A stretch of 64,000 bases of DNA, taken from NCBI GenBank assembly GCA_025363715.1, contig JANYLR010000104.1, positions 42,044-106,043 of the forward strand. Direction: 5' to 3'. The translations under genes and the position numbers were made by a program. Positions 23,946-53,111 of this stretch are shown here, piece by piece. The stretch is from Holophagaceae bacterium (GTDB lineage: Bacteria; Acidobacteriota; Holophagae; Holophagales; Holophagaceae). The notes beneath the pieces are model-generated. The model worked only from the letters and a program-made list of their open reading frames with translations, ran no database searches and was not told where the DNA came from. Each line of letters opens with the position of its first letter. Within the stretch, counting starts at the first letter, position 1.

Positions 23946-23990
23946 GACAGGATTAACAGGATTGAAAGATTGGATTAACAGGATTTCAAA
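23946..23990 (+). repeat. Left flank array GACAGGATTAACAGGATTgaaagattGGATTAACAGGATTTCAA
   Basis: Near-exact reverse complement of 24391-24432. Confidence 0.95.
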
Positions 23991-23995
23991 AAGGA

Positions 23996-24394
23996 ATGGT
24001 CATGGCGGTGGGTGAGAATGCCATGAATGAGCTGTCTGGGCGCGTGATTGGGGCGGCGATGCGGGTGCATTCGGCGCTTGGGCCTGGATTCACGGAGGGC
24101 GTCTACCAAAATGCGCTGGCACTCGAAATGACCCTGGAAGGCATTCCGTTTGAACGCGAAGTGAAACTTGAAGTCCGCTATCGGGGTGAACTGGTCGGGC
24201 AGTATCGAGCAGACCTTCTGGTCGCAGGTGTGCTGATCTTGGAACTGAAAGCCGTTCAGGCCATCCTTCCCGAATACGAAGTCCGGGTAGTCAATTACCT
24301 CGCCGCCACTGGTTTGGAACATGCATTGCTTCTGAACTTCGGGACAAAGAGCCTCCAGTTGAAAAAGAAATTCAGGAATTTCCGCCCTTCTTGA
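23996..24394 (+). CDS. GxxExxY protein
   Basis: NELSGRVIGAAMRVHSALGPGFTEGVYQNALALEM...YRADLLVAGVLILELKAV: GxxExxY (GFTEGVY) and ELKAV typical of the family. Confidence 0.93.
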   Translation: MVMAVGENAMNELSGRVIGAAMRVHSALGPGFTEGVYQNALALEMTLEGIPFEREVKLEVRYRGELVGQYRADLLVAGVLILELKAVQAILPEYEVRVVNYLAATGLEHALLLNFGTKSLQLKKKFRNFRPS

Positions 24395-24432
24395 ATCCTG
24401 TTAATCCTGCTTTTAATCCTGTTAATCCTGTC
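24391..24432 (-). repeat. Right flank array TTGAATCCTGTTAATCCTGCTTTTAATCCTGTTAATCCTGTC
   Basis: Inverted relative to 23946-23990; contains the GxxExxY stop codon. Confidence 0.95.
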
Positions 24433-49372: not shown

Positions 49373-49412
49373 GACAGGATTAACAGGATTGAAAGGCCGG
49401 ATGAACAGGATT
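49373..49412 (+). repeat. GACAGGATTAACAGGATT-family array, single copy upstream of DUF4143 gene
   Basis: GACAGGATTAACAGGATTgaaaggccGGATGAACAGGATT matches the left flank at 23946. Confidence 0.92.
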
Positions 49413-49495: not shown

Positions 49496-49520
49496 TATTT
49501 GACGGAATACGCGTCAAATA
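49496..49520. promoter_or_regulatory. Perfect 9-bp palindrome, operator-like, upstream of DUF4143 ATPase
   Basis: TATTTGACG-gaatacg-CGTCAAATA ending 11 bp before the ATG at 49532. Confidence 0.6.
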
Positions 49521-49531
49521 ATGAGGCCAAT

Positions 49532-50683
49532 ATGTATGTTGCTCGCCAGCTCGATCTCGCGGCAGTGCTGAAGCAGAAGTCCTGTTTCCTCTTCGGACCG
49601 AGGCAGACGGGGAAAACCAGCCTGATCCGGGAAACCCTGCCGGGGGTGCCGGTCTACAACCTGCTGGACCACCGGACTTGGTTGAACCTGAGCACCAATC
49701 CGTCGCGGATCCGGGAAGAACTGGATGCTTCTGGGCTGCGGGACGCGGTGGTCGCCATCGACGAGATCCAAAAGCTGCCGGTCCTCCTGGATGAGGTGCA
49801 GCTTCTGATTGAAACCCGAGGCCTGCGGTTTCTCCTGACAGGTTCGAGCGCCCGGAAGTTGAAACGGTCGGGTGCGAACCTGCTGGGTGGCAGGGCCCGG
49901 TCACGCACACTGCATCCCTTCAGCTGGGTCGAGCTGGGCGCGGCCTTCGATCTCAACAAGGCCCTTGGATATGGGTTGCTCCCTCACATCTACGGATCGG
50001 ACGACCCGGCAGAGGACCTGCGGAACTACGTCGGCGCCTACTTGCGCGAGGAGATCGCCGCGGAGGGCCTGACGCGCAATGTGCCTGCCTTCGCCAGGTT
50101 CCTGGAAGTTGCCGCCGCCTGCAACGGCCGGATGATCAACAAGACCGAGGTGGCGAATGATGCGAAGGTCCCCCGCACCACGGTGAATGATTATTTCGAG
50201 ATCCTGAAAGACACGTTGATCGGGAGCGAACTGGAAGCCTGGACGCGGAGCCGGAAGCGGAAGGCCATCGAGACGGCCAAGTTCTACCTCTTCGATGGCG
50301 GGGTCGCGCGGGCCATTCAGGGGTTGCCTCCGCTCGCACCCAAATCGCCCGATTTCGGCGACATGTTCGAGCAGTTCATCTTCCACGAGCTGAGGACTTG
50401 GATCGACACCCGGAAACCTGGATTCCCGCTCAACTACTGGCGCTCGACCTCGGGCTACGAGGTGGATTTCATCCTGGGCGGCCACACCGCCATTGAGGTG
50501 AAGGCGACCTCCAGTGCCGGCCGGCGCGACCTGCGAGGACTGGAGGCGCTGGCGGAGGAAGGCCTGATGAAACGCTTGATCCTGGTCTGCCGCGAGGATG
50601 TGCCGAGACAAGTGGGGCGAGTACTCGTGCTGCCCTGGCGCGTCTTCCTGCAGCAGCTGTGGGAGGACGCATTCCTGGATTGA
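49532..50683 (+). CDS. ATP-binding protein, AAA/DUF4143 family
   Basis: LKQKSCFLFGPRQTGKTSLIRETL, LLTGSSARKLKRSGANLLGGRA, C-terminal EVDFILGGHTAIEVKAT. Confidence 0.93.
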   Translation: MYVARQLDLAAVLKQKSCFLFGPRQTGKTSLIRETLPGVPVYNLLDHRTWLNLSTNPSRIREELDASGLRDAVVAIDEIQKLPVLLDEVQLLIETRGLRFLLTGSSARKLKRSGANLLGGRARSRTLHPFSWVELGAAFDLNKALGYGLLPHIYGSDDPAEDLRNYVGAYLREEIAAEGLTRNVPAFARFLEVAAACNGRMINKTEVANDAKVPRTTVNDYFEILKDTLIGSELEAWTRSRKRKAIETAKFYLFDGGVARAIQGLPPLAPKSPDFGDMFEQFIFHELRTWIDTRKPGFPLNYWRSTSGYEVDFILGGHTAIEVKATSSAGRRDLRGLEALAEEGLMKRLILVCREDVPRQVGRVLVLPWRVFLQQLWEDAFLD

Positions 50684-50771
50684 TCATCGGTCCCAGCTCC
50701 GGCTCTGGCGGGGGACTGAGCCTTCCGGTTATCCTAAGTGCTTGTTCGGACATGACTCTGGAGGAGCGCGC

Positions 50772-51551
50772 ATGGTCGCCAAGGGCGGGCTGTTGGAAGG
50801 CAAGCGGGGACTGATCATCGGGGTGGCCAACAAGCGGTCCATCGCCTGGGGCATCGCCCAGCGGGCGACCGAAGCGGGGGCGCAGCTCTGCCTGACCTAC
50901 CAGAACGAGCGCCTGGGCGAGAATGTCCGCGAGCTGGCCGCCGAGCTGAAGCATCCCCTGCTGACCATGATGGACGTGGGCAGCGATAGCCAGATCGTCA
51001 TGGCCTTCGACGAGATCCGGAAGAAGTGGGGGAAGCTCGATTTCGTGGTGCACGCGGTGGCCTATGCGCCTCGCCAGGCCCTGGAGGGGAGCTTCCTGGA
51101 CACCAGCCGTGAGGATTTCCGGGTGGCCCTCGATATCAGCGCTTACTCCCTGGCCGCGGTCGCACACGCGGCCCAACCGCTCATGCCGGATGGCGGCTCC
51201 ATCGTGACCCTCAGCTACCTGGGTTCCGAACGGGTGGTGCCCGGCTACAACGCCATGGGCGTGGCCAAGGCGGCTCTGGAATCCAGCGTGCGCTACCTCG
51301 CCGCGGACCTGGGCCCCCAGGGCATCCGGGTGAACGCCATCTCGGCCGGGCCCATCAAGACCCTGGCCGCCTCGGGCATTCCGGGCATCGGTTCCAAGCT
51401 CAGGCACCACCGGACCGTCACCCCGCTGCAAAAGGACACGGACATCCTGGAGGTGGGCGACGCGGGCGTGTTCTTCCTCAGCGACATGGGCCGGGGCGTC
51501 ACCGGCCAGGTGCTGTACGTCGATGGTGGCTTCAGCATCATGGCGGGGTAG
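50772..51551 (+). CDS. fabI: Enoyl-[acyl-carrier-protein] reductase (FabI)
   Basis: GLLEGKRGLIIGVANKRSIAWGIAQ, YNAMGVAKAALESSVRYLA. Confidence 0.95.
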   Translation: MVAKGGLLEGKRGLIIGVANKRSIAWGIAQRATEAGAQLCLTYQNERLGENVRELAAELKHPLLTMMDVGSDSQIVMAFDEIRKKWGKLDFVVHAVAYAPRQALEGSFLDTSREDFRVALDISAYSLAAVAHAAQPLMPDGGSIVTLSYLGSERVVPGYNAMGVAKAALESSVRYLAADLGPQGIRVNAISAGPIKTLAASGIPGIGSKLRHHRTVTPLQKDTDILEVGDAGVFFLSDMGRGVTGQVLYVDGGFSIMAG

Positions 51552-51574: not shown

Positions 51575-51617
51575 GACAGGATTAACAGGATTAAAAGCTG
51601 GATTAACAGGATTCAAA
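51575..51617 (+). repeat. GACAGGATTAACAGGATT-family array, left end of an apparently empty cassette
   Basis: GACAGGATTAACAGGATTaaaagctGGATTAACAGGATTCAA. Confidence 0.95.
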
Positions 51618-51653
51618 AGTACCTGGGTATCGGCCTGCCTCAGCTTGAAAGGA

Positions 51654-51674
51654 CCACCACGAAGGGCACGAAGA
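51654..51674 (+). repeat. Second repeat type (ACCACGAAGGGCACGAAGA), nested
   Basis: AAGGGCACGAAGA recurs inverted at 51785-51797. Confidence 0.8.
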
Positions 51675-51784
51675 CGCCCTGTGGGCGCAGGAAGTTCACG
51701 AAATTCATCATCCTTCCCCGGGTCATCCCTTTGCGGGGCGGCGGCCGAAGGCCCGGATAACCCACACCGGAGCGACGGGGCCGG

Positions 51785-51826
51785 TCTTCGTGCCCTTGGT
51801 CTTTGCTCTTTTCGTGTCCTTAGTGG
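51785..51826 (-). repeat. Inverted partner of nested ACGAAGGGCACGAAG repeat
   Basis: TCTTCGTGCCCTTggtctttgctcTTTTCGTGTCCTTAGTGG. Confidence 0.8.
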
Positions 51827-51894
51827 AGGCATTGAAGGCCCTGCAAGAGGCGGAGCAAGGCCGATAAACAGGCAAAAGCATTGATTTATTGATC

Positions 51895-51936
51895 TTTAAT
51901 CCTGTTAATCAGGCACTTAATCCTGTTAATCCTGTC
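51895..51936 (-). repeat. AATCCTGTTAATCCTGTC-family array, right end, inverted relative to 51575
   Basis: TTTAATCCTGTTAATCaggcacTTAATCCTGTTAATCCTGTC, adjoining the peroxiredoxin stop codon. Confidence 0.95.
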
Positions 51937-52410
51937 TTAGCTTTTTTGTAGTGCCGCCAGTGTCTCCATGACTTCGGCGACGTGTCCCTTCACGCTGACT
52001 TTGGGCCAGACGTGGCGGATGATGCCTTTGGGATCCACGAGGTAGGTGCTGCGGATGATGCCCTGCACTTCCTTGCCGTACATGATTTTCTTGCCGAAGG
52101 CACCCAGGGGGTTGAGCAGCGTGCATTCGGGATCGGAGAGCAGGCGGAAGGGGAGGTTCTGCTTGGTGATGAAGTTCTGGTGGCTCTTGAGGCTGTCCCG
52201 GCTGATGCCATAGACCCGGGCGCCGTAGGACTGCACCCGGGCCAGGTTGTCGCGGAAGTCGCAGGCCTCCGTGGTGCAGCCGGGGGTGCTGTCCTTGGGA
52301 TAGGCGTAGAGCACGGTCCAGTGGCTCTGGAAGTCCTTGGCCGTGATGGTGGCGCCCTGATCGTCCTGCAGGGAGAAGGCGGGAAGGGGCTGTCCGAGGA
52401 GGGGGCTCAT
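51937..52410 (-). CDS. Thioredoxin-dependent peroxiredoxin (BCP type)
   Basis: LGQPLPAFSLQDDQGATITAKDFQSHWTVLYAYPKDSTPGCTTEACDFRDN. Confidence 0.94.
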   Translation of the reverse strand: MSPLLGQPLPAFSLQDDQGATITAKDFQSHWTVLYAYPKDSTPGCTTEACDFRDNLARVQSYGARVYGISRDSLKSHQNFITKQNLPFRLLSDPECTLLNPLGAFGKKIMYGKEVQGIIRSTYLVDPKGIIRHVWPKVSVKGHVAEVMETLAALQKS

Positions 52411-53111
52411 GGACGCAAGGGTAGCGAGGATGTCCACGCCAGGCCAAGGACCGTCAAGAGCGCGGCCCAACCCAAGGGGGATGGATCCGACCCGAGGCGC
52501 GGCAGTTCCTCCGCCAGCAGGCGCCCCAGGCTGTCGTGGCCGGGCCCCGGCCCCAGGCCCAGGGTCGAAAGGGTGGCCTCCCCCCACAGGGCCGATAGCC
52601 AGGCGCTGGGAAAGAGGGCGGCGGCCTGCTGCCAGCCCCAGGGGGCCCAGCGGCGCAGGGTGGAGGCCCCGGTGGCACCCAGGGTCCGCTCCGCGGCCCA
52701 GGCCGGGGAATGCCGGAAGTGCTGGAGCCTGGCCCTCAGCGCGGGCTCCAGGTGGGGACTGATCAGGAGGCCTAAGAGGAGCCCGAGGGGCAGAGCAGAG
52801 AGGCCCCCGAGAACCGCAGCCAGGGGCAGCAGGAAGAGCAGGGGCGGCAGGCTGCGCAGGGCCGACCAGGTGCCGAGCCAGCGCTGGCCGCGCCAGGCGG
52901 TGAGCAGGCCCAGGGCCAGTGCCAGGAGGGCGCAGGCACTGGCGAATCCCAGGCTGCGGACCGCGGCCAGGGCCAGACGCAGCAGGGCGTCCCGGCCCAG
53001 GTCATCCGTGCCCAGGGGATGCCAGAGCGTAGGGACGAGGCCCCCGCGGAAAGGATCCAAGGCCAGCTCGGGGAGGAGCAGGGAACCCAGACAGGCGAGG
53101 CGCCACCTCAT
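52407..53111 (-). CDS. Peptide ABC transporter permease-like protein (DppC-like, short)
   Basis: LWHPLGTDDLGRDALLRLALAAVRSLG is the DppC/OppC hallmark. Confidence 0.75.
   Translation of the reverse strand: MRWRLACLGSLLLPELALDPFRGGLVPTLWHPLGTDDLGRDALLRLALAAVRSLGFASACALLALALGLLTAWRGQRWLGTWSALRSLPPLLFLLPLAAVLGGLSALPLGLLLGLLISPHLEPALRARLQHFRHSPAWAAERTLGATGASTLRRWAPWGWQQAAALFPSAWLSALWGEATLSTLGLGPGPGHDSLGRLLAEELPRLGSDPSPLGWAALLTVLGLAWTSSLPLRP

Follow-up and report, generated by a model that had tools for sequence, protein, structure and literature searches.

REP and REPIN elements are moved by RAYT (Y1) transposases, and some insertion sequences target REP. The repeats described here are likewise palindromic, occur genome-wide and can be targets for other elements, but insertion of the inner element of the locus produces duplications of 8 bp, and its partner transposase is of the DDE type. 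The locus occupies positions 51575-51936 of a 64,000-nucleotide stretch from a Holophagaceae bacterium (contig JANYLR010000104.1), referred to as the window.

The closest precedent is found in Streptococcus pneumoniae, where the terminator-like SPRITE (with AAAA/TTTT ends), BOX and RUP lie near gene ends and are inserted into one another (PMC3049150; reviewed in PMC10969869). In the window, small palindromic gene-end repeats show the same mutual insertion; however, the sequences are unrelated, and the arms of the outer hairpin consist of period-9 doublets that occur in many phyla. As the situation is otherwise that of pneumococcal nesting, with another transposon family identified for the inserted element, the inner element is a new IS1595-family MITE in a nest of a known general kind.

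The IS1595 family generates 8-bp duplications and has an N-terminal zinc finger in most groups, while the related eukaryotic Merlin elements have a terminal GG (PMC8101967). The window element resembles IS1595-family MITEs in being short and non-coding, in sharing its termini with transposase-bearing congeneric copies, and in its 8-bp duplication. It differs in its new termini (CCTG.TTATCGGC...), in a body composed of period-9 repeats and a GC-rich palindrome, and in a strong preference for hairpin arms in one relative. GxxExxY (PDDEXK_3) cassettes have the same GACAGGATTAACAGGATT arms as the locus, but these carry a gene.

Layout of the locus

The features of the locus are listed in Table 1. 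The outer arms (51575-51616 and 51895-51936) are 42 nt each and 88% complementary. When up to 3 mismatches are allowed, their core GACAGGATTAACAGGATT occurs 9 times in the window, compared with 0.02 expected. This agrees with a sequence-only reading of the window, which had assigned the outer pair to the family of the copies at 23.9 kb. The inner inverted pair noted in that reading also exists, with its partner region at 51785-51826, but its start is found at 51656 and not at 51654. It consists of ACCACGAAGGGCACGAAGA from 51656, a partner at 51785-51803 and then TTCGTGTCCTTAGTGG at 51811-51826, with a chance expectation of 0.01. A genome-wide scan for the CACGAAG motif at 3 mismatches was too noisy for use. 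A third inverted pair, previously unlisted, encloses the CACGAAG pair and forms the true ends of the inner element (51622-51644 and 51850-51872).

Table 1. Features of the nested repeat locus in window coordinates
Feature	Position	Strand	Remark
fabI-like enoyl-ACP reductase gene	50598-51551	+	PF13561; converges on hairpin; start codon uncertain
Outer hairpin, left arm	51575-51617	+	two period-9 doublets, GACAGGATTAACAGGATT and GGATTAACAGGATT
8-bp target site duplication, left copy	51614-51621	+	CAAAAGTA
Inner element, IS1595-family MITE	51622-51872	+	251 bp, non-autonomous, non-coding
MITE left terminal inverted repeat	51622-51644	+	CCTGGGTATCGGCCTGCCTCAGC
Inner CACGAAG repeat, left copy	51656-51674	+	MITE body
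Junction lacking a GC-rich central palindrome of ~66 bp found in other copies	51737-51738		alignment
Inner CACGAAG repeat, right copies	51785-51826	-	MITE body
MITE right terminal inverted repeat	51850-51872	-	GCGGAGCAAGGCCGATAAACAGG
8-bp target site duplication, right copy	51873-51880	+	CAAAAGCA
Outer hairpin, right arm	51895-51936	-	
bcp-like peroxiredoxin gene	51937-52587	-	PF00578; converges on hairpin; start codon uncertain
T run just beyond the right arm	51942-51947	+	terminator-like tract by sequence and polarity statistics; overlaps bcp end

The absence of a convincing gene between the inner pair, stated in the same reading, is borne out, since the sole frames over the inner element are a 79-aa frame with a TTG start and a 179-aa antisense frame running into fabI, and the indels that distinguish related MITE copies over these frames have lengths not divisible by three. 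A search for a conserved ORF inside recovered none, and the locus had no match in Rfam even at E ≤ 1. Folding of the 362 nt is far better than that of shuffled sequence (z = -8.9), as expected from nested palindromes. At 49373-49412 of the window, a left arm of the outer repeat is present with no right arm visible, upstream of an AAA_14/DUF4143 ATPase gene (49499-50683).

The inner element

The window MITE is bounded by the terminal inverted repeats CCTGGGTATCGGCC.../...GGCCGATAAACAGG and contains no transposase gene. Its termini are common to autonomous copies (CCTGGGTATCGGCC.. / CCTGTTTATCGGCC.. in the window and CCTGATTATCGGCG.. in the congeners G031, G014 and G016). In a search of 60 genomes, matches to the MITE body (51622-51872) were located in the same genus. 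Full copies are often ~310-320 bp in length, with the ends CCTGGTTATCGGCC...GGCCGATAACCAGG, and fold as stacked hairpins. The window copy is shorter, lacking the central palindrome (251 bp versus ~317 bp in the copy on contig C85 of the same genome); this non-coding core of ~66 bp is its sole visible loss.

The target duplication of the window copy is imperfect (CAAAAGTA/CAAAAGCA, 7/8), the mismatch being probably a later point mutation. Among 42 full congeneric copies, the flanking 8 bp agree at a mean of 5.26 of 8 positions, compared with 2.55 in shuffles (maximum 3.53). Duplications of 7/8 or 8/8 are present in 20 of the 42 copies (shuffles: mean 0.9, maximum 4), and a scan of duplication lengths from 4 to 11 gave by far the strongest excess at 8. 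MITE bodies of other subfamilies, with the same termini and other period-9 repeats (GCAGATGGC, GCAGAGGGC, CACAGATTTG), occur at three loci (L196 on contig C10 of the window genome, L198 and L180). It may be that such MITEs acquire hairpin repeats or transport them.

The partner transposon

The autonomous partner encodes a DDE_Tnp_IS1595 transposase with an N-terminal zinc ribbon. It is an element of 2757 bp in G031 (C161, 1748-4504), which is bounded by CCTGATTATCGGCGAGCCTCAGCC and inverted CCTGATTATCGGCGTCCCTCAGCC and flanked by the perfect duplication TAAACAAG. The transposase matches PF12762 at 98 bits, PF12760 at 54.8 bits and NF033547 at 192 bits (cut-off 75). Three further loci encode close relatives of this transposase and have the same kind of termini with 8/8 duplications, namely G014:C260 (TTCCGTTA), G016:C20 (AAAATGGT) and G016:C38 (TATCTTTA). 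The G031 element also contains a Fic-domain passenger gene (DUF4172 and Fic; L323, 1775-3379).

In the window genome, a draft that is ~84% complete, no intact IS1595 transposase was found, the one trace being a C-terminal fragment that adjoins a terminal repeat where contig C25 ends. In G008 and G060, terminal repeats spaced by more than 700 bp were looked for, and no autonomous copy came up. Transposases of the IS4/IS5 type (PF01609) were considered as partners and gave two matches, neither with MITE termini. The IS1595 copies of G009 and G060 also lack these termini; therefore, not every IS1595 element of the genus is a partner.

Comparison among the genomes documents the nested arrangement and its empty alleles, the terminal repeats with their 8-bp duplications, transposase-bearing partners and a bias towards hairpin arms. 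The MITE would be mobilised in trans.

Choice of insertion site

The preference for hairpin arms is strong in G008. Seven copies in this genome (L172, L179, L180, L181, L183, L184 and L185) are inserted at TCCTGTTA in arms belonging to GACAGGATT hairpins. The arms entered differ, both orientations occur, and all seven duplications are perfect. One more copy, L109, is flanked by TCCTGTCA/TCCTGTTA. At the fabI/bcp site of G008, the element is located in the right arm, again with the perfect duplication TCCTGTTA. The 3.3-Mb genome contains ~35 arm matches, each some 42 bp long, so that such clustering is not due to chance. Across the genus, matching hairpin arms of this family or another (at least 13/14 complementary) border 15 of the 42 copies, a level reached by no control flank.

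Judged from its sequenced copies, the MITE repeatedly uses terminator-like hairpins as landing sites. The transposase may prefer the sequence or the hairpin, or insertions there may merely be tolerated. The same kind of nest is present in Geothrix fuzhouensis SG12 (TTCTGTTA/TCCTGTTA), a named strain, and may therefore be testable there. The window bacterium itself probably belongs to or near Geothrix, as named contigs of that genus match loci of the window genome and of G008 at 83-84% and a contig of an uncultured Holophagaceae is identical to congener G014.

The outer hairpin in the genus

The outer repeat is found at about a dozen loci in the window genome, a 3.4-Mb draft, and most of these are cargo-free hairpins only some 70-130 bp long. 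A match to the fabI/bcp region was obtained for 46 of the 47 genomes in the genus, which enabled direct comparison of the alleles. A cargo-free hairpin alone occupies the site in G066, which represents the sister lineage, and in G033, G036, G024, G006 and G014. The hairpin lies beside an extra gene in G011 (C8), G021, G060, G026 and G015, and an apparent remnant is present in G002 and G032. In G005, G067 and G063, the gap is 3-4 bp and contains no hairpin. No gene lies between the arms in the alleles examined, except for a TA-like pair by the MITE end in G011. There, at L165 (C49), an outer arm and a decayed MITE end are followed by a Phd-like/ParE-like toxin-antitoxin pair, named by eye. Other palindromic repeat families occupy the site in G061 (L137), G017 (L138) and G030 (L156), with the motifs GCGAATGGC, GATGAACACGG, CACAAAGGA and CACGAAG. 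This pattern suggests that hairpins replace one another at gene ends.

Stable hairpins followed by T tracts are characteristic of intrinsic terminators, and the outer hairpin has this arrangement. In G066, the empty hairpin has a folding z of -7.8, and GCUUUUUU comes after it. Of 27 distinct copies in the genus, 26 have a tract on one side or both, namely AAAA no more than 15 nt beyond the left arm or TTTT no more than 15 nt beyond the right arm; the opposite polarity was found in none, and control windows placed 100 bp out gave 0-1. A consensus terminator scan returned nothing, as its loop limit excludes this hairpin. From these features, the outer hairpins are most likely intrinsic, often bidirectional, terminators in the genus. 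No target duplication was evident at the ends of the outer-hairpin copies inspected by eye.

Probable order of events and alternative explanations

The locus is very probably a nest formed in two steps, a terminator-like hairpin that received an IS1595-family MITE in its loop. The convergent fabI/bcp junction would initially have carried a short palindromic repeat with arms of GACAGGATTAACAGGATT and a loop of ~25-30 nt. An IS1595 DDE transposase acting in trans would then have moved the MITE into this loop, with duplication of 8 bp, and part of the palindromic core of the window copy would have been lost later. A repeat within a repeat can in this way be resolved into ordered events, with the empty site, the target duplication and the transposon family all identified. 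A maximum-likelihood tree built from the ends of the flanking genes places the window closest to G066 (support 100/81), whose empty loop contains no duplicated 8-mer; the four MITE-bearing alleles at fabI/bcp do not group together. Against the two-step nest stand the one mismatch in eight in the window duplication, the failure to find an intact IS1595 transposase in the draft window genome, the negative consensus terminator scan and several congeners without any hairpin at the site.

The sequence-only reading had proposed that one cassette was inserted into another, followed by loss of cargo, or that the cassette is non-coding. As a whole, this interpretation is partly supported. Insertion of one element into another is upheld by the 8-bp duplication, by the empty hairpins that relatives, the sister lineage among them, have at the site, and by the naming of the transposon family; the description as a non-coding cassette fits the inner element. 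Neither outcome that would have refuted the reading was obtained, as no conserved ORF was recovered and similar elements are numerous elsewhere. Loss of cargo is not supported: an outer hairpin free of cargo is the norm both here and in most of the remaining copies, and copies of the inner element are as a rule MITEs that code for nothing. It would require that the outer repeats once enclosed cargo comparable to the GxxExxY gene at 24.0 kb before a second cassette entered. The same arms do flank that gene at the 23.9-kb site, where armed gene cassettes come and go, but the cargo-free hairpin is the common state at fabI/bcp, genome-wide and in other phyla, and the flanks of the window MITE rejoin into an ordinary short loop. 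Nothing points to a lost cargo, and this explanation is very improbable. It is equally hard to credit that the inner part is a selected structured RNA or regulatory element instead of a mobile-element remnant. The strong folding and the 16 of 73 consensus pairs that are changed on both sides speak for selection; however, covariation contributes just -0.54 kcal/mol, a small term that stems in large part from one clade-specific swap in the central palindrome and falls short of demonstrating a functional RNA. Moreover, Rfam gave no match, the element is dispersed as copies with target duplications, and the window copy lacks the core. The MITE may nevertheless have been co-opted for a function.

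A further explanation accepts the MITE insertion and concerns the outer hairpin, which would be a mobile palindrome without terminator function, tolerated between convergent genes. Hairpins with the 18-mer GACAGGATTAACAGGATT in many phyla and in archaea, without the A/T-tract polarity seen in the window genus, are consistent with this, as are the other hairpin families at the same site in congeners. The near-uniform polarity of the genus copies argues against it, and it is considered unlikely, although to be taken seriously. The two-step nest with a terminator-like outer hairpin remains the preferred reading.

The outer repeat beyond the genus and GxxExxY cassettes

In the window, a GxxExxY (PDDEXK_3) gene at 24002-24394 lies between the same GACAGGATTAACAGGATT arms (23946-24432). 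Across the genus, this 23.9-kb site holds either a bare gap of 10-43 bp with no hairpin, as in most congeners, or an armed cassette. In G017 (L336), the arms at this site enclose ~350 bp of other content. Having no gene between its arms, 51575-51936 does not qualify as a GxxExxY cassette.

The exact 18-mer was found in at least Kiritimatiellota, Verrucomicrobiota, Chloroflexota, Proteobacteria, Bacteroidota, Desulfobacterota and others, as well as in Methanoperedens archaea. Among the matches listed, those outside the genus are mostly short hairpins. No description of a cross-phylum 18-mer hairpin class was found in the open literature searched, and searches with the repeat letters gave unrelated papers; the identical 18-mer in many bacterial phyla and Methanoperedens brings this class to attention. 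Tentatively, the GACAGGATTAACAGGATT hairpins may be regarded as a cross-phylum and archaeal class of period-9 doublet hairpins, which spreads among genomes, whose members replace one another at gene ends, and which provides preferred landing pads for IS1595 MITEs and GxxExxY-type cassettes. Two Candidatus Methanoperedens contigs, L230 and L248, carry the exact GACAGGATTAACAGGATT, in L230 as a short hairpin.
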